A stretch of DNA of 42,065 nucleotides from Treponema sp. (GTDB lineage Bacteria; Spirochaetota; Spirochaetia; Treponematales; Breznakiellaceae), in assembly GCA_031274035.1 (NCBI GenBank), contig JAISQR010000176.1, positions 1 through 42,065 of the forward strand. The letters run 5' to 3'. Numbering within the stretch: the first letter of the stretch is position 1; the number at the start of each line of letters is the position of its first letter. Below the pieces are notes generated by a model, which worked only from the letters and a program-made list of their open reading frames with translations, was not told where the DNA came from and searched no databases. Of the stretch, positions 6,896 to 41,019 are shown piece after piece. Both the position numbers and the translations under genes were made by a program.

Positions 6896-8080
6896 TTACT
6901 GATAGCTTATAGGATTACCTTTCTTATCCAACGCATCAATAAACGCTTTCGCCGCCGCCCTGACTTTATTAATATCTCCATCGCTTATTGATCTGCTGTT
7001 ATCAAGGAGAAGATAAATAATTACAGATTTTTTCTCTGTCTCTTGGTTTTGTGTAGCGGTTCCAGAGCTATATTCATAACTTGCCTGATAAGCATTGCCC
7101 TTCTTTTTCCATTGTTTAAAAAAATCTTTGTTAAATGTTACTCCGGTTGCATTAAATATTCTTACGGTAACCTGGCTGGTGCTGGGCCGATATGTAAGCT
7201 CCACTCTCGCTGTTACACCAGCGCTGGCTTTCATATCCTCGAAAACATAGTTATTACCGGATTTTGCTATTGTTCCTTCAATCCAGGATGTTGAATCACC
7301 TCCAGAGGCCGCATCGTCAAAGGTCCACCTAACAATATCCCTATTGGCATAAGCGGCAGAGGTGAATGTAATTGCGGATGTTGTTGTTGTAATATCCAAG
7401 CTGGTTGCTTTAGTTGCAAGCTCCTCTGCCAATTTATCATAACCATCAGTAATAATTGTCTTATTAGAATCCTCCCCCCCCGCCAAACCTTTAAGAGCTT
7501 CCGCAAAATCATCACTATCAGGAGCTGTTTTATCTGTTGCCGCTAAACCTACCGAATATGCTGTAATGTTCTTTGACCTTACGGTAAAACTTTTAATCCG
7601 CTCTTCAGTAGCGGTTTTATACTCCGCTTCCGTGTCGTCGCCAGCCGCCGCCGCGGAACCTTCATCTAAACCATCGGTAAAGGTGATCATATAGACAGCA
7701 TCCAGCGAATTTGGAAAAGCAGCTTCCTTATTCTTTATATTATCCAATGTTTTATTTATGGCATAATACAACTTTGTACCGTCATTACCGGCACGGGTGT
7801 ATTTATCCAAAACCGCCTTAAGATCATCCGCCCCATACCCATATTGTGTATCACCATTTTCATCCCAATAGGCGTAGCTCCCCAAATAAACAGGATAGTA
7901 ATCGGTAATGTCCCTAACCTCATTACCAAAGGTAACAATGCCTACATAAACCCCAGGTACAGAGGTCTGGCGGACAATATCCTTCAATATCTTGTCCAAC
8001 TCTCCGCAATTACTCAATCCCAGCCCTATAAAAGCCAAAATTCCAACTACTACAGCCGCTTTTAAGCCGCGCTTTTTCAT
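6896..8080 (-). CDS. Lipoprotein with apparently circularly permuted VWA domain
   Basis: This 394-residue lipoprotein precursor has a signal peptide with a lipobox ending at C25 (GLSNC). The mature part begins with what is normally the second strand of a von Willebrand A domain (VYVGIVTFGN, 44-53). The metal-site threonine follows (NDGTKLYYAI, T102), then the strand with the metal-site aspartate (MITFTDG, D136) and the last strand and helices (NITAYSVGL, about 171-227). A beta-rich segment of about 120 residues follows (230-348). The first VWA strand with the DxSxS motif (IIYLLLDNSRSIS; D360, S362, S364) and its helix come only at the very end. All three metal-site elements are present, in permuted order. 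AGGGGG precedes the ATG and an intrinsic terminator follows the gene. Substrate or partner is unknown; it is probably anchored at the periplasmic or outer surface. Confidence 0.8.
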   Translation of the reverse strand: MKKRGLKAAVVVGILAFIGLGLSNCGELDKILKDIVRQTSVPGVYVGIVTFGNEVRDITDYYPVYLGSYAYWDENGDTQYGYGADDLKAVLDKYTRAGNDGTKLYYAINKTLDNIKNKEAAFPNSLDAVYMITFTDGLDEGSAAAAGDDTEAEYKTATEERIKSFTVRSKNITAYSVGLAATDKTAPDSDDFAEALKGLAGGEDSNKTIITDGYDKLAEELATKATSLDITTTTSAITFTSAAYANRDIVRWTFDDAASGGDSTSWIEGTIAKSGNNYVFEDMKASAGVTARVELTYRPSTSQVTVRIFNATGVTFNKDFFKQWKKKGNAYQASYEYSSGTATQNQETEKKSVIIYLLLDNSRSISDGDINKVRAAAKAFIDALDKKGNPISYQ

Positions 8081-8209
8081 GCTTTCCCCCTAATTTTAAG
8101 TGTAAAATTTGTATTTATATTCATAACTATATCATTATATTTTTCTTGTGTCTATATAATATTTTTGCCAAAGAGAAAAAAGACGTAAAAACATCAAATT
8201 TAACCCCGC

Positions 8210-33567: not shown

Positions 33568-33681
33568 TTTACAAATGTTATGTAAAGAAGTATAATAGTA
33601 TAAACTTATGGATTTTTTTGGTATATTAAAAATCCATCGGAAAGAGCCGACGGATCAAAAATTCTAAAGATGAGGATAATT
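33568..33681 (+). promoter_or_regulatory. Promoter, palindrome and alternative-hairpin leader of the Fn3/cadherin-like lipoprotein
   Basis: TTTACA (33568-33573), 17 bases, TATAAT (33591-33596). The -35 is one arm of TTTACA-N7-TGTAAA, a possible operator. The leader of about 80 bases can fold two ways that exclude each other: ATGGATTTTT (33608-33617) with AAAAATCCAT (33628-33637), or ATCCATCGG (33632-33640) with CCGACGGAT (33647-33655, one mismatch). GAGG at 33672-33675 is the Shine-Dalgarno. Confidence 0.55.
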
Positions 33682-34656
33682 ATGAAGAAATCATTACTCG
33701 CTTTGCAGGTTGTATTTTTTACTTTACTTTTAGCGCTTTTAAGCTGCGGTTCAACGCCTCCGGCAGCCGAAGAACCGGAAGAAGTAAAGGAAAAATTGAT
33801 TGCGCCTTTCGTTATTGTTTCCAGCGACAAGTCCACTATCAAACTTAACTGGAACAAGGTTGAAGGGGCCACCGGTTACAAGATATATTACAGTACCTCG
33901 GAAGCCGCCCCTTCCAATACCGAGGACCCGCCTTCGGTCATCACGATTGACTCAGGGGATACCCTTAGTACGCAGATCGAAAATATAGGCGCCGGCGCAA
34001 CCTATTTTATCTGGGCCAAGGCAACAGGCGACGGCATTGATAGCGATTGGGCCATGAGCCTGGCGAACAAAATGCCCAATTACAATGCTAATTTAAGCAA
34101 TCTTGAAATTATCGATTATACACTAACGCCCGTCTTTAATCCCGATGTTTATAACTATTCCCTGACATCGCCTGTTGCGTCCGGCGTGGAAACCATAACC
34201 GTTTCAGCGGATCCGGAAGATATTAATGCCCTCGTCAGCGGGGATGGATGCCAGGCGCCTTTCGGTGAAGGGCAGGATGAAAATATCATTACCGTCCGGG
34301 TAACCGCCGAAGACGGGGTAAACTACAACGATTATACCATATATATAAGCCGCGGCGAAATTGTCGAAGCTGAAGAGGAAGAAGACGACGACGATGGGGA
34401 GGGTATAGGCGTCCTTAAACTGCGCGTCCGCCATGATAAAGATAATAAACTGCTTATTCTAAGCTGCCGGGATGGTGAAGGCTACTACCAATGGCATATC
34501 AACGGCATTGTACGCAAAACCACCAGAACCGGAAGGACGCGTATCGATATCTCTCATTTAAGGCCGGGAACCTATACAATCGGTGTAGTGGTGTTTAAAA
34601 AGCAAAATACGATACATTACTCATCGAAAGTTACTATTACAGTAGACGAAGATTAA
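33682..34656 (+). CDS. Lipoprotein with fibronectin III and cadherin-like domains
   Basis: The 324-residue precursor, from the ATG at 33682 (GAGG upstream), has a lipobox ending at C22 (LALLSCGS). Residues about 40-130 read as a fibronectin type III domain (STIKLNWNKVEGATGYKIYY ... YFIWAKATGDGIDSDWA). Residues about 140-222 match the cadherin-like beta-sandwich (PF12733 type: NLSNLEIIDYTLTPVFNPDV, YNYSL, then VTAEDGVNYNDYTIYI). A run of acidic residues (about 228-240) links to a C-terminal beta domain of about 80 residues of unknown type. It is an envelope surface protein, probably for adhesion or structure. A terminator follows. Confidence 0.82.
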   Translation: MKKSLLALQVVFFTLLLALLSCGSTPPAAEEPEEVKEKLIAPFVIVSSDKSTIKLNWNKVEGATGYKIYYSTSEAAPSNTEDPPSVITIDSGDTLSTQIENIGAGATYFIWAKATGDGIDSDWAMSLANKMPNYNANLSNLEIIDYTLTPVFNPDVYNYSLTSPVASGVETITVSADPEDINALVSGDGCQAPFGEGQDENIITVRVTAEDGVNYNDYTIYISRGEIVEAEEEEDDDDGEGIGVLKLRVRHDKDNKLLILSCRDGEGYYQWHINGIVRKTTRTGRTRIDISHLRPGTYTIGVVVFKKQNTIHYSSKVTITVDED

Positions 34657-34955: not shown

Positions 34956-34989
34956 AATCTCTCAAATCTGAATATTACAGAGATTTTTT
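34956..34989 (+). terminator. Terminator-like hairpin immediately before the beta-helix gene
   Basis: AATCTCT (34956-34962) pairs with AGAGATT (34979-34985) and is followed by TTTT to 34989. It ends directly at the Shine-Dalgarno GGAAGG (34990-34995) of the next gene. It could be an attenuator or a barrier to read-through from upstream. Confidence 0.45.
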
Positions 34990-35002
34990 GGAAGGTGTGT
35001 TT

Positions 35003-37723
35003 ATGCTAAAAAAGACGATTTTCACGGGTCTTCTCTGCACCGTCCTGCTGTTGACGGCTGCTGGAAGGTCATGGCCGGAGGAATCCTGGTTTGTCAAGGC
35101 AACAGGCAGCGATTTAAACGGCGGGCTTTCCGAGGTTGTTCCCTTTAAAACCCTTGCGCGGGCCCTGGATGCAGCTTCAAATGGAACTGTTAAAACCATT
35201 ACCGTCTTAGGCGTCCTTGATATGCACAGCGAAACTCTCCAATCCGATGAGGGGGTTTTTACCATCGAAAACGCGGGGGATCGGATTCTTATACGCGGCA
35301 AACAGAACCCGGCGGAAGGCGAAGGGGCTGTTTTAAGCGGGAAAGGCGCGGGAACGCGGGTTGTGTATATAGCCGGAAACACCGGTATACGTTTTGAGCG
35401 TATCGGCATACAGGACGCGGAGACCGGTCAGTATGGCGGCGGACTTATGATCAGAGATGCCCATGTTACGCTGGGGGAAGGGGTCTGGATAAGCGGCAAC
35501 CGGACGGAGGCCTCGGGCGGCGGCGTTGCTGCTACGGATGCCTGCGTTTTAACAATTGAAGGCGCGGATATCAGCGGCAACGAGGCGGCCCGGGACGGCG
35601 GCGGGCTTATTGTCAGTGATACCGCGTCGGTCATCATGCTTTCAGGAAAGATCGGCGGCAACGAAGCGGCATGGGCCGGGGGTGCGGGCGTTTCAGGTAC
35701 ATTTACGATGGAGGGCGGAACCATAGCCGGTAACAGGGCCGCCAATTCGGGCGGCGGCGTCTACGCTTTTAAGGGAAGCAATGTTTCCATGAAGAACGGC
35801 GGGATCAGCGGCAACGAAGCGGCGGCGGGCGGGGGCTTAGGCGTTTCAGGTGAATTTACGATGGAGGGCGGGATTATAACCGGTAACAAGGCCGCCAATT
35901 CAGGCGGCGGCGTCTGGGCCTTTGAGGGAAGCAGCGTTTCCATGAAGGGCGGCGGGATCAGCGGCAACGAAGCGGCATGGGCCGCGGGCTTGGGTGTTTT
36001 AGGTACATTCACGATGGATGGCGGTGAGGTCAGCGGAAATAAAGCGGATGAGGACGGCGGCGGGCTTATTGTCAGTGATACCGCCTCGGCCGTCATGTTT
36101 TCGGGGAAGATCAGCGGCAACAGGGCGGGGCGGAACGGCGGGGCCGTTAATATCTACGCAGGCGGCGGCTTTAACTTGCACGGCGGCGAGATCAGCGGCA
36201 ACGAAGGCGCAAGCGCGGGCGGTCTGGCTGTTTCTGGCGGGTTTACGATGGAGGGCGGAACAATAGCCGGTAACAGGGCCGCCAATTCAGGCGGCGGCGT
36301 CTATGCCTTTAAGGGAAGCAGCGTTTCCATAAAGAACGGCGGGATCAGCGGCAACGAGACGGCTGGGAACGGAGGCGGTATTTTTGTCGGGGATGCCGCC
36401 TCGGTCATCATGCTTTCGGGGAAGATCAGCGGCAACAAGGCAGGGCGGAACGGAGGGGGCGTTAATATCTATACAGGCGGCAGCTTTAACCTGTGCGGCG
36501 GTGAAATTACCGGCAACGAAGCGGCATGGGCAGGCGGTCTGGTTGCGGCAGGCGAATTTACGATGAAGGGCGGGAGCATAGCCGGTAACAGGGCCGCCAA
36601 TTCAGGCGGCGGCGTCTACGCCTTTGGGGGAAGCGGCGTTTCCATACAGGACGGTGTGATCAGCGGGAATAAAGCGGATACCGGCGGCGGTATTTTTGCC
36701 GGGGATGGCTGTGTTTTAATAATTGAAGATGCAGAGATTAGCGGTAATGAAGCGGCCCAGGACGGCGGCGGGCTTTTTGCCGGTAACAGCGTATCGGTCA
36801 TCATGCTTTCGGGGAAGATCAGCGGCAACAGGGCAGGCCGGAACGGAGGGGGTGTTGAAATCTACACAGGCGGCAGCTTTAATATGCACGGCGGCGGGAT
36901 CAGCGGCAACGAAGCGGTATGGGCGGGCGGTCTGGCTGTTTCAGGTGAATTTACGATGGAGGGCGGAACCATAGCCGGTAACAGGGCCGCCAATTCAGGC
37001 GGCGGCGTCTATGCCTTTGAGGGGAGCAGCGTTTCCATAAAGAACGGCGAAATCAGCGGCAACGAGACGGCTGGGAACGGCGCGGGTATTCTGGCCTTTG
37101 AAGATAGTTCCCTTACCCTGGCGGGCGGCATTATCCGCGGCAACCAGGCGGCCCTATCCGGGGGCGGAGTACTCACCTACGGACGCTTTGTGATGAACGG
37201 CGGGAAAATCATCGCGAACCACGCAAAAGACGGCGGCGGTGTTGTCGTTAGAGACCAGAGTGAGTTCAGACTGCTGGACGGGGAAATTTCCGGCAATCAG
37301 GCCCTGCGTGTAGGCGGTGTTTTGGTTTTCGGCGTTTTTATCATGGAAGGCGGCGCGGTCAGCGGTAATTACGGCGTCTATGCGGGCGGCGTCGGCACTG
37401 ACACAGGCGGTGTTTTTACAATGGAGGGCGGCCTTATCGAGCAGAACCAGGGCGGACTGGGAGCCGGGGGGCTGCGGATAATTATGGGGGCACGGGCCCT
37501 TATGTCGGGCGGCAAGATACGCGGCAATCAGGCGCACCAGGGGGGAGGAGTCCTGCTATACTCAGGCGGCGGCTTTACCCTGGAAGGCGGCGAGATTGAA
37601 GGGAACCTGGCAAATGAAGGCGGCGGCATCTTTATGAACAAGGGCGGCAGTTTTACCCGGACAGGCGGTTCCATACAGAGTAACGATGCATCCTTGGGCG
37701 CCGATACGATAAGCGAAAATTGA
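35003..37723 (+). CDS. Exported repeat-rich beta-helix protein (polymorphic outer membrane protein-like)
   Basis: The protein has 906 residues from the ATG at 35003 (GGAAGG upstream). A signal peptide (about 1-24) is followed by a cap with parallel beta-helix character (WFVKATGSDLNGGLSEVVPF; about 27-130). About 30 turns then carry the motifs GGGV/GGGI and ISGN/IAGN, like the GGAI/FxxN repeats of chlamydial Pmp proteins. A unit FTMEGGTIAGNRAANSGGGV followed by YAFKGSSVSIKNGGISGNE recurs five times, nearly unchanged at DNA level. No C-terminal autotransporter barrel is seen; it ends in QSNDASLGADTISEN. It is likely surface-exposed or secreted, possibly an adhesin. The WD40-caspase gene follows after 50 bases. 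Confidence 0.82.
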   Translation: MLKKTIFTGLLCTVLLLTAAGRSWPEESWFVKATGSDLNGGLSEVVPFKTLARALDAASNGTVKTITVLGVLDMHSETLQSDEGVFTIENAGDRILIRGKQNPAEGEGAVLSGKGAGTRVVYIAGNTGIRFERIGIQDAETGQYGGGLMIRDAHVTLGEGVWISGNRTEASGGGVAATDACVLTIEGADISGNEAARDGGGLIVSDTASVIMLSGKIGGNEAAWAGGAGVSGTFTMEGGTIAGNRAANSGGGVYAFKGSNVSMKNGGISGNEAAAGGGLGVSGEFTMEGGIITGNKAANSGGGVWAFEGSSVSMKGGGISGNEAAWAAGLGVLGTFTMDGGEVSGNKADEDGGGLIVSDTASAVMFSGKISGNRAGRNGGAVNIYAGGGFNLHGGEISGNEGASAGGLAVSGGFTMEGGTIAGNRAANSGGGVYAFKGSSVSIKNGGISGNETAGNGGGIFVGDAASVIMLSGKISGNKAGRNGGGVNIYTGGSFNLCGGEITGNEAAWAGGLVAAGEFTMKGGSIAGNRAANSGGGVYAFGGSGVSIQDGVISGNKADTGGGIFAGDGCVLIIEDAEISGNEAAQDGGGLFAGNSVSVIMLSGKISGNRAGRNGGGVEIYTGGSFNMHGGGISGNEAVWAGGLAVSGEFTMEGGTIAGNRAANSGGGVYAFEGSSVSIKNGEISGNETAGNGAGILAFEDSSLTLAGGIIRGNQAALSGGGVLTYGRFVMNGGKIIANHAKDGGGVVVRDQSEFRLLDGEISGNQALRVGGVLVFGVFIMEGGAVSGNYGVYAGGVGTDTGGVFTMEGGLIEQNQGGLGAGGLRIIMGARALMSGGKIRGNQAHQGGGVLLYSGGGFTLEGGEIEGNLANEGGGIFMNKGGSFTRTGGSIQSNDASLGADTISEN
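35701..37070 (+). repeat. Near-identical ~120-bp coding repeats in the beta-helix gene
   Basis: Five copies of a unit beginning TTTACGATGGAGGGCGG and including GGTAACAGGGCCGCCAATTC start near 35701, 35850, 36241, 36558 and 36952. Longer blocks that include the AAGATCAGCGGCAACA unit (near 36106, 36422, 36816) also recur. The high DNA identity makes recombination or slippage between copies likely, which would change protein length in steps of whole turns. Confidence 0.75.
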
Positions 37724-37773: not shown

Positions 37774-40700
37774 ATGAAAAAGACATTGCTTTCTATTATA
37801 GTGCTTTTTCTTGTTCCTTTACTGGGGGCCCAGGAAGTTTCGGTTTATCCGCAATTAGGACATAGCGATCTGATCAATACCGCGGTCTACAGCCCTGACG
37901 GAAAATTTATTCTCTCCTCATCCTGGGACGAAACCCTCAAGATATGGGATGCGGTTTCGGGCAGGGAGCTTAAAACCATAGCGGCGCACGGTAGAACCCC
38001 GCTCTGCGCGGTCTGGGACAACAGGGGCCTCTTCCTTGCGGCAGGCTTCTGGGACGGCTCGGTAAGCATCTGGGATAGGGAAAGCGGGGCGGAACTGAAA
38101 ACCTTTAAAGGCCACACAAGCACCGTCAATGCAATCTTCTTCACTGCCGATGACAGCCGGATAATCACCGCTTCCTTTGACGGGACAATCAAGGTATGGG
38201 ACAGCGGATCCGCGGAAAATACCGGAACGATAATCGCGTCGGGCACGGTTAACGCGGCGGTTTGTAGTCCGAATGGAAAAAATTTGGCCTCCGGCGGCGG
38301 AGACGGCATAGTACAGGTCTGGGAGACGGAAACCGGCGCCAAGCTGGGGGCTTTTGCGGGGATAGGCGGCGCGGTTACCTCCCTTGCCTGGACCGCCGGT
38401 AAGAACCGTATTATCGCCGGTTACTTTGACGGAAGCATAGCGGTTTGGGATGCGGAGAGCGGAAAGCTGTTAAAGACGATGAGCGCTCATAGGGGGGCGG
38501 TGAGTAGTCTTGCGGTGAACCCCGCGGCAACACGTATCGTTTCAGGCTCTATGGATAGAACGCTTAAAATGTGGGATATGGAAAGCGGCGCTCTGGTACT
38601 GTCCATGATAGGCCACGAGAGGCCGGTACGATCCCTTGCATGGAATCCAGCGGGAAGGCGGGTGCTTTCAGCCTCCTTTGATAAGACCATCAGGGAGTGG
38701 GATGCGGAATCGGGCGTATTGCTGGCCTCTTATTCAGGCTGGATTGATTACGCCTTTTCCGCAGACTTCCGGTTTGATATGAAATACATACTCTCCGGGG
38801 CGGCTAATACGCTGGATTCAGAGGGCGCCCTGCATATCTGGGATATGGAAACCGGCGCTCTGCTTACATCCCTAAAAGGACACGCCAAAGGTGTTACGGA
38901 CGCCGCGTTCAGCCCGGACGGCAGCCTGGCGCTTTCCGGCTCCGGTGATACATCCCTTAAAATATGGGACGTGGAATCGGGCTCGCTTCTCCATACCCTG
39001 AGCGGCCATAGCGACCGGATTACCAGGGCCCTTTTCAGCCCGGACGGCGGCCGTATTTTGTCCGCTTCCTGGGACGGGACGCTGAGGATATGGGACGCGG
39101 CAAGCGGCGCCGAATTAAAAACGCTCACCGGTAATACCGACATTGTTTACGCCGCAGCCTGGAACCCCGGGGGCATGCGGGTACTTTCAGGCTGCCGGGA
39201 CGGTTCTATCCGCGAATGGGATGCCGAAACCGGCCTTGAACTGGGCTCGTTTAACCCCAACGACGGCGGTATTTCCTGTGTAGTGTACAGCCCGGACGGT
39301 AAACAGTTTGCGTATGGTTCTTATAGAAAGATAGTAAGCGTGTATAAGACGGGCATGGACAAAGAGAATCGATTGTTTAATCTTGAAGGTCATGGGGACG
39401 CCGTTAATACCCTTGCCTACAGCCCTGACGGAAAATGGATACTCTCGGCCTCGGGACAAACGGATACTTCTTCAGGGGATAAAACTATCCGCATTTGGAG
39501 CGCGGAAACCGGCAGGGAATTGCTCTGTCTTCCCGGTCATACCAACAATGTTGCATCCGCGGCCTTTAGCCCGGACGGACGGTATATCATTTCCAGTTCC
39601 AGTGATGGTACGGTTAGGCTCTGGGCCGTAGAGCTTAATACAGAGAGCGGTATTCTTTCGGGCAGGGAAACGCTCCGGTTTATTGCCTTTGCCAACGGGG
39701 AATGGATTTGCATTACGCCGGAAGGTTACTACAACGCGTCGGCGCGCGGCGATCAGCGCCTCAATGTGCGGATAGGCGATGAGGTTTACGGCATGGACAA
39801 TTTTCGGGGGGTATTCTACCGGCCCGACGCAGTTTCTACCGCGCTTTCCGGGGATAACAAAGCCTACTTAGCCTCTATAGGGGGCAGACGTATACAGGAC
39901 GCGGGGGATTTTCTGCCGCCTAAAATTGAAATTCAGGATTCTGAACTGAAAATAGAGGCGGGGACAGCCCGCATTCCCGTTATATTTACCGGCGAAACTC
40001 AGCCGGTAAAGAACGTCCGCGTGATTGTACGCGGCCACCTTATAGCCCATGAAGAAATGGAGGGAGCGGAAAGCAGCCGGGAGCGGGGAGTGTCTGAGCC
40101 CCGCCGTTTTGAGAGGACCTACCCTGTTACGTTGAAACCAGGCTGGAATAGTATAGAGATCATCGCAGACAACGGCTTTTCTGACGATTCCCGAATCATC
40201 GAGATATACTATGCGGGATCAGAAGCCGCCCCCGTACCTAACCTGTGGATACTTGCCATAGGGGTTAATCAGTATGAGGATGCTGTTCTGGAGGATCTTT
40301 CCTACGCAGCCGCAGATGCCCAGGGCATCGTCAGGAGCTTCAAGGCCCAGGAAGGCGCCCTCTACGGCAAGGTAAACAGCCTCCTTGTTACCGGAGAACA
40401 GGAAAAAGGCCCTACGCGGGAGGCTGTTATAGAAGGTCTCTCCTTTCTTAAACAAGCCGGCGGACAGGATATCACGGTGCTTTTTATGGCAGGACACGGG
40501 GTCAGCGACCGCGATAACAATTTTCTTTTCCTTCCCGCGGATGCGGCCCATACCGGCGATATTACAGTCTGGGAAAACGCGGTAAGCCGTCAGGAAATTG
40601 ATGCTGTCTTACGAAGAATCCTGGGACAGAAGATCGTCTTTATTGACGCATGCCATTCTGCGGGGGTAGCCGGAGGCAGGGCAAAATCGGTCGATTCCAA

Positions 40701-41019
40701 CCGTCTCTTCCGCGACATGGATGACGGCAGTACCATAGTGCTGACTTCAAGCAGAGGTAATGAATCGTCCCTGGAACGCGCCGAATTTGGACACGGCCTT
40801 TTTACCTACAGCATTATTCAGGGGCTGGCCGGCGCCGCGGACCTGGACATAGGCGGCTTAGGTAAGGACGGGCTTATAACACTTAACGAACTTAATACCT
40901 ATGTACAGATCATGGTGCCCCGCTTAAGCGGCAGGAAGCAGAATCCGACAATAAATACACCGGCGGGATTTTCCGATTTTGATATTGCGGATCTGCGGAA
41001 AATTGGGTATATTGAGTAA
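37774..41019 (+). CDS. Exported WD40 double-propeller protein with C-terminal caspase (peptidase C14) domain
   Basis: The 1081-residue protein has a signal peptide (about 1-19, ending LLGAQ). Fourteen WD40 repeats (about 26-625) end in IWD-type motifs, enough for two seven-bladed propellers. A linker (about 626-820) with a beta-sandwich-like part (IEIQDSELKIEAGTARIPVI) leads to the caspase-like domain (about 820-1060). It opens NLWILAIGVNQYEDAVLEDL and has catalytic H908 (MAGHGVSD) and C960 (FIDACHSAG), followed by VLTSSRGNESSLERAEFGHG and a helix-rich end. Both residues of the His-Cys dyad are intact, so protease activity is plausible. The signal peptide places it outside the cytoplasm, which is unusual for signalling-type WD40-caspase proteins. 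A DUF4384-like gene follows after 13 bases. Confidence 0.88.
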   Translation: MKKTLLSIIVLFLVPLLGAQEVSVYPQLGHSDLINTAVYSPDGKFILSSSWDETLKIWDAVSGRELKTIAAHGRTPLCAVWDNRGLFLAAGFWDGSVSIWDRESGAELKTFKGHTSTVNAIFFTADDSRIITASFDGTIKVWDSGSAENTGTIIASGTVNAAVCSPNGKNLASGGGDGIVQVWETETGAKLGAFAGIGGAVTSLAWTAGKNRIIAGYFDGSIAVWDAESGKLLKTMSAHRGAVSSLAVNPAATRIVSGSMDRTLKMWDMESGALVLSMIGHERPVRSLAWNPAGRRVLSASFDKTIREWDAESGVLLASYSGWIDYAFSADFRFDMKYILSGAANTLDSEGALHIWDMETGALLTSLKGHAKGVTDAAFSPDGSLALSGSGDTSLKIWDVESGSLLHTLSGHSDRITRALFSPDGGRILSASWDGTLRIWDAASGAELKTLTGNTDIVYAAAWNPGGMRVLSGCRDGSIREWDAETGLELGSFNPNDGGISCVVYSPDGKQFAYGSYRKIVSVYKTGMDKENRLFNLEGHGDAVNTLAYSPDGKWILSASGQTDTSSGDKTIRIWSAETGRELLCLPGHTNNVASAAFSPDGRYIISSSSDGTVRLWAVELNTESGILSGRETLRFIAFANGEWICITPEGYYNASARGDQRLNVRIGDEVYGMDNFRGVFYRPDAVSTALSGDNKAYLASIGGRRIQDAGDFLPPKIEIQDSELKIEAGTARIPVIFTGETQPVKNVRVIVRGHLIAHEEMEGAESSRERGVSEPRRFERTYPVTLKPGWNSIEIIADNGFSDDSRIIEIYYAGSEAAPVPNLWILAIGVNQYEDAVLEDLSYAAADAQGIVRSFKAQEGALYGKVNSLLVTGEQEKGPTREAVIEGLSFLKQAGGQDITVLFMAGHGVSDRDNNFLFLPADAAHTGDITVWENAVSRQEIDAVLRRILGQKIVFIDACHSAGVAGGRAKSVDSNRLFRDMDDGSTIVLTSSRGNESSLERAEFGHGLFTYSIIQGLAGAADLDIGGLGKDGLITLNELNTYVQIMVPRLSGRKQNPTINTPAGFSDFDIADLRKIGYIE

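Follow-up and report, generated by a model that had tools for sequence, protein, structure and literature searches.

P0001, a predicted lipoprotein encoded in the window (the whole stretch of 42,065 nucleotides of Treponema sp. DNA that was analysed, contig JAISQR010000176.1), very probably carries a naturally circularly permuted VWA (integrin-I-type) domain and belongs to a conserved family. Few adhesion folds have been studied as much as the VWA/integrin I domains, of which we know no natural circular permutant. The first-pass annotation had described the domain as apparently circularly permuted, which is borne out by two complementary Pfam pieces, by the conserved order in the relatives and by homologues in normal order.

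Segment order and metal site of P0001

The gene and the parts of its product are as follows.

8126..8154, minus strand: promoter-like site, TAGACA-17-TATAGT with extended -10 (consensus scan only; the count of such sites is not above that in shuffled sequences)
8085..8090, minus strand: ribosome binding site GGGGGA, from reading the sequence
6896..8080, minus strand: gene of P0001, 394-residue predicted lipoprotein with the permuted VWA domain (open reading frame, 8080→6896)
8006..8080, minus strand: residues 1-25, predicted signal peptide ending in a lipobox-like LSNC (residues 22-25, Cys25), from sequence inspection
7397..7954, minus strand: residues 43-228, VWA strand 2 to last helix with T102 and D136, from superposition of the model
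7775..7777, minus strand: T102, metal-site Thr, invariant in 78/78
7673..7675, minus strand: D136, metal-site Asp in TFTDG, invariant in 78/78
7028..7390, minus strand: residues 231-351, beta-sandwich bridging the old VWA C-terminus and the old N-terminus, from AlphaFold2
6917..7027, minus strand: residues 352-388, VWA strand 1 and helix 1 (Pfam VWA 2-33 of 174; AlphaFold2)
6989..7003, minus strand: DxSxS motif D360-N-S362-R-S364 (D360 and S364 invariant; Ser or Thr at 362 in 78/78)
6858-6841, minus strand: intrinsic-terminator-like hairpin, 3' of the P0001 gene

The gene is solitary, flanked by the promoter-like site and the terminator-like hairpin, and P0001 is present in one copy in its own genome. 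Generally, in VWA domains the DxSxS motif comes first, followed by the metal-site Thr and then the metal-site Asp. The corresponding linear order (strand 1-helix 1-strand 2 ... last helix) is not found in P0001, where strand 1-helix 1 trails the rest of the domain, and the protein is therefore classed as a permuted VWA variant and not as an ordinary member. VGIVTF lies at residues 46-51, T102 in NDGTKLYYAI and D136 in TFTDG, and the C-terminal segment VIIYLLLD360NS362RS364 is followed by a single helix and the stop; all of these residues, and the LSNC motif, are where the first-pass annotation had put them. Its claim that every metal-site position is kept holds as well, because in the alignment of 78 relatives T102, D136, G137, D360 and S364 are invariant and residue 362 is always Ser or Thr. 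Hence, the match to the metal site in P0001 is not due to chance.

Sequence profiles confirm that the order of segments is rotated: the VWA domain of P0001 begins at strand β2, and β1-α1 comes last. The Pfam VWA model matches P0001 only at residues 355-386, corresponding to profile positions 2-33 of 174 (E 3.8e-8). When the C-terminal segment is moved to the front, the Pfam VWA score rises to 42.5 bits in two stretches, and a VWA_2 match spans the join. The rotated relative L003 matches Pfam VWA over 2-167 of 174, and its N-terminal part alone gives no match. In other relatives kept in their native order the N-terminal part matches the complementary piece of the profile (36-170 in L013, 36-171 in L039, 34-170 in L005), such that the two pieces abut at about position 34. 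Searches of the PDB gave a similar picture: the profile of rotated sequences matched the VWA domains of complement C2/factor B and CLCA across the join (C2, E 4.9e-6), with a multi-VWA collagen VI chain as top entry (E 3.1e-10), whereas with the unrotated profile the two halves were matched separately (best E 0.0027).

With VWA/integrin I (PF00092), P0001 thus shares the five metal-site positions and the fold of the part between strand 2 and the last helix, but its strand 1-helix 1 with DxSxS is C-terminal and the old ends are bridged by the beta-sandwich. The VWA domains of complement factor B and C2, which are among the best PDB matches of the rotated profile and also of the C-terminal strand 1-helix 1 segment, have the ordinary order, are eukaryotic and protease-linked, and are without the beta-sandwich bridge. 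Neither Pfam nor NCBIfam has an entry for the unit of permuted VWA and beta-sandwich, and no permuted VWA or MIDAS domain is named in the literature searched, in which the coverage of subscription journals is limited. Co-mentions in the literature led to cpRAS, permuted GFP and a permuted transglutaminase-like peptidase, none of which is a permuted VWA. cpRAS and the YawG/YlqF GTPases are likewise natural circular permutations of a three-layer alpha/beta fold, from an unrelated fold family, and the VWA neighbour of the permuted RAS domain in cpRAS is not described as permuted (PMC2430557).

Permuted relatives and their possible role at the cell envelope

With P0001 alone as query, a search of genome contigs for close relatives gave no match. 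A tight alignment of 7 rows served well as query; one of 19 rows was too diverse for this use. In a search of 99 related genomes, 17 (counting that of the window) contained homologues, all belonging to the same family, and the full-length ones have the same order throughout. A scan with one genome per species returned 130 relatives, from which 79 loci were retained, mostly from termite-gut Treponema and other Spirochaetota and from ruminant-gut Bacteroidales, together with Alistipes and UBP6; the hosts are those given in the titles of the sequence records, and for the Treponema MAGs a termite origin is presumed. The alignment of 78 rows is the basis of the conservation counts and the AlphaFold2 input, and later searches enlarged the set to 117 distinct permuted proteins from Spirochaetota, Bacteroidota and UBP6, i.e. 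at least three phyla. The conservation of the permuted order among homologues, which had been suggested as a check, is hence evident. In the full-length relatives DxSxS lies no more than ~30 residues before the end of the matched domain, or shortly beyond that end. Among Spirochaetota outside the window's family the distribution is thin: relatives were found in 9 of 395 genomes at class level and in 5 of 296 at phylum level, and the majority of these belong to the window's own family. UBP6 genomes contain up to five copies of the permuted VWA family; the 1.9-Mb genome G462, to which locus L108 belongs, has five, two of them adjacent on one contig. One relative, L154 (307 residues, minus-strand open reading frame), has a permuted VWA domain without the beta-sandwich, and only few residues join its last helix to strand 1-helix 1.

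A lipobox-like signal was found by pattern search in 73 of the 117 permuted relatives. More than 60 residues follow helix 1 in 78 of them, and these parts include FGE-sulfatase-like, FN3, SPOR, Lcl_C and other domains. The placement of helix 1 at the very C-terminus, as initially described, is thus correct for P0001, whereas in most relatives helix 1 is followed by additional domains. This extension, together with the promoter-like site and the ribosome binding site upstream and the terminator-like hairpin downstream, argues that P0001 is not a broken gene.

The intact metal-site positions, the export signals and the fusions to envelope and surface domains led us to propose that the domain binds an acidic ligand in a metal-dependent manner at the envelope of the gut symbionts, with the beta-sandwich presumably coupled to the VWA domain at two points. 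After export and lipidation at Cys25, P0001 would be anchored to the cell envelope, where its metal face would bind the acidic ligand through the metal, as in adhesive VWA domains. Adhesion to host, diet or neighbour cells appears to be the likeliest use, which we favour by a modest degree. It is also possible, although we regard it as rather less probable, that the permutation is real and the domain works inside the envelope, for example as a scaffold related to peptidoglycan or to assembly, instead of being an outward adhesin. The SPOR (peptidoglycan-binding) or CsgG-like parts in some relatives fit such an internal role, whereas the FN3, FGE-sulfatase-like or Lcl_C domains of others have the look of surface proteins, and the C-terminal part of the normal-order proteins described below resembles an outer-membrane beta-barrel by eye. 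No conserved neighbour gene, and none hinting at function, was found around the genes of the permuted family. The recurrent neighbour clusters beyond the family itself resemble overlapping antisense frames or synteny among close relatives, and a search for phage records of the family found none.

Structure model, orientation and the beta-sandwich

AlphaFold2 predicted nearly the whole folded region of P0001 with high confidence (pLDDT 88.8, pTM 0.82). The model shows the Rossmann-like alpha/beta fold for strand 2 through the last helix, and its residues 41-231 superpose in VIA-align on residues 178-336 of the integrin alpha2 I domain with Z 13.9-14.0 at ~2.5 Å over 154-159 residues; on 6nd8_C, residues 41-229 superpose with Z 14.0 at 2.5 Å over 154 residues. 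In integrin alpha2 I DxSxS is at residues 151-155, so that 178-336 is everything after α1. In Foldseek the full model gave no significant match in the PDB (best E 0.04), which we attribute to the use of a sequential method on a permuted fold.

The first-pass annotation had named as counter-case a model in which the C-terminal DxSxS segment does not complete the sheet. This outcome appears unlikely, as the segment was modelled as a confident strand (352-360) and helix (367-388) with pLDDT ~96. In the VWA sheet β1 is flanked by β2 and β4, and the covariation of strand 1 was highest with strands 2 and 4, a suggestive signal that is noisy with 81 effective sequences. From the model confidence, the DSSP assignment and this weak covariation we infer that the C-terminal strand 1-helix 1 docks into the gap of the same chain, where it would slot between strands 2 and 4 and complete the metal site. 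Alternatively, the permuted order could be real and strand 1-helix 1 could complete the VWA domain of a neighbouring molecule, in which case the metal site would exist only in surface dimers or chains. With strand 1-helix 1 at the chain end and a linker domain before it, the geometry is swap-prone, and AlphaFold2 was run on the monomer only. Nevertheless, we consider such a domain swap improbable, as the monomer model is confident throughout, including the terminal segment, and as L154, with its short junction and no beta-domain, leaves little room for it.

The topology of the fold also suggests how the domain is oriented. In VWA domains β1, β2 and β4-β6 run parallel to one another, with the metal site at the C-terminal ends of these strands. 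Consistently, D360 ends strand 352-360 in the model and D136 directly follows strand 126-135. Since the chain enters the domain at the N-terminal end of β2, parallel to β1, the N-terminus of P0001 should be at the pole opposite to the metal site, where by fold topology the N- and C-termini of ordinary VWA domains lie as well. Thus, the earlier suggestion of a lipid anchor next to the metal face is probably incorrect. With the lipid-anchored end at the opposite pole, the metal face would be free to point outward, away from the membrane.

The beta-sandwich folded alone gave a confident model of nine strands (pLDDT 89.9, pTM 0.81). No Pfam family was found for this domain and no significant Foldseek match for it alone; its structural matches are weak and generic Ig-like (best Z 5.9), and an integrin or ITIH hybrid domain is absent among the listed ones. 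A comparable architecture exists in the integrin beta I-like domain with its hybrid domain and in the inter-alpha-inhibitor heavy chain 1, where a VWA domain is likewise tied to one beta-sandwich at both ends. However, in P0001 the beta-domain is contiguous and the VWA domain is the split one, the converse of the integrin beta I-like/hybrid arrangement. Tethered via the last helix and strand 1, the beta-sandwich could report or transmit an open/closed change, comparable to the transmission by the hybrid domain of the integrin beta I-like domain.

Both orders in one family

Four intact normal-order homologues with the same unit of VWA and beta-domain were found in Bacteroidales.

Locus L149, 991-2622, plus strand: normal-order protein
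Locus L150, 301-1800, minus strand: normal-order protein
Locus L151, 982-2670, minus strand: normal-order protein
Locus L152, 841-2706, minus strand: normal-order protein

Against the family profile all four match in two pieces of reversed order, 211-343 and then 3-209, with a gap of 5-9 residues; in L149 the pieces score 77.0 and 119.3 bits, and the 8 residues between them are the helix 1-strand 2 loop. In Pfam, L149 has a single full VWA match (2-173 of 174, E 9.5e-15). The beta-domain of these proteins is split around the VWA domain, with YIEG…WQ.DSE ahead of it and the …VRWTLD strands after it, which are joined in P0001. Their final stretch (ECYVPPRFKGKVRWTLD) matches the strands with which the P0001 beta-domain begins. 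As judged from the profile order, the VWA domain is thus inserted in the beta-domain as in integrin beta. The C-terminal region of the four proteins looks like an outer-membrane beta-barrel by eye. Conversely, with a profile made solely from these four sequences, rotation improved the score of 115 of the 117 permuted proteins, raising the median from 72.7 to 122.1 bits and the coverage from 197 to 331 of 369 positions. P0001, a divergent member of the family, is among the two without gain (41.8 vs 40.4 bits).

The reversed order of the pieces and the split beta-domain show that the same two-domain ring is opened at two places in one family; hence, the normal and the permuted forms are circular permutations of one ring. 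In this ring a single beta-sandwich domain would be connected to each of the two original ends of the VWA domain. In the normal-order members the ring would be open within the beta-sandwich (beta part - strand 1, helix 1, strand 2 ... last helix - beta part), and in P0001 and most members at the helix 1-strand 2 loop (strand 2 ... last helix - beta-sandwich - strand 1, helix 1). Accordingly, the beta insert of ~120 residues noted in the first-pass annotation does exist, but it is not an arbitrary insert; it is a partner domain, which links the former ends of the VWA domain and which is itself divided in two in the normal-order proteins. The occurrence of both orders in one family makes a natural circular permutation of the VWA fold directly demonstrable. 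Moreover, it can be tested with natural sequences how such a ring can be reopened at a new loop and whether a metal-dependent shape change depends on the location of the chain ends. The family also points to a blind spot of library scans, in which most of its proteins show at best a partial VWA domain.

Such a partial Pfam match, as seen in P0001, could also come from two truncated VWA domains lying side by side, the first without strand 1-helix 1 and the second consisting of nothing else, i.e. from decay instead of permutation. The normal-order homologues show that both pieces are parts of one VWA domain, and the 117 relatives in three phyla keep the metal positions and have no remnants at either end: a second VWA fragment, either strand 1-helix 1 upstream or strand 2 and onwards downstream, was sought and found in 0 of 117. 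Homologues with a lost DxSxS and a second truncated VWA domain, which had been named beforehand as evidence against permutation, are therefore absent, and with 78 of the 117 running on for more than 60 residues the permuted order is not a scar of two truncated domains. The homologues thus rule out this highly improbable reading. The least credible explanation, segments moved by a sequencing, frameshift or assembly artefact, could be invoked for the fragmented assembly of the window (590 contigs, contamination 5.85%) but is ruled out by the same order in dozens of independent assemblies, including the single-contig 4.1-Mb genome G040.

The history of the permuted order was followed in an unrooted tree of 57 members, whose sequences had been brought into a common order. 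The four normal-order proteins group in a single clade (100/100), adjoined by a permuted member from the order Bacteroidales (95/81). The Spirochaetota are on the other side (100/100), except for the class-level relative L030, which groups with the Bacteroidales side. A first tree had two long branches that met; after rebuilding without both, the normal-order clade still had 100/100. The normal and permuted orders are separated by one branch with support 100/100, and a single change of order is enough to explain the tree. To our knowledge, all other VWA domains have the ordinary order; hence, the permuted one was derived from it at least once. If the β-VWA-β unit was duplicated in tandem and both ends were then lost up to the α1-β2 loop, exactly the present order would have resulted. 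More speculative, and in our opinion rather doubtful, is the idea that the chain ends of the ring of VWA and beta-sandwich are movable, with the normal-order clade perhaps being a second, reverse permutation and the double tether acting as a two-point allosteric switch that is indifferent to which loop is opened.

The normal order is rare: a search in 395 genomes of the phylum of G585 found it in G585 only. Two more normal-order copies, L148 and L156, are each split by a frame change, and L156 shares the genome G639 with an intact copy. Elsewhere in the window, three plus-strand genes encode further proteins with repeat or beta-sandwich features. A predicted lipoprotein (33670-34656, LLSCGS) with a cadherin-like beta-sandwich domain lies directly 5' of an exported protein of 911 residues (34988-37723) with right-handed beta-helix repeats (GGG..ISGN), which is similar to polymorphic outer-membrane proteins. 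The third protein (37774-41019, 1081 residues) contains an extended series of WD40 repeats; its C-terminal domain, with the motif FIDACHSAG, looks caspase-like (peptidase C14) by eye.
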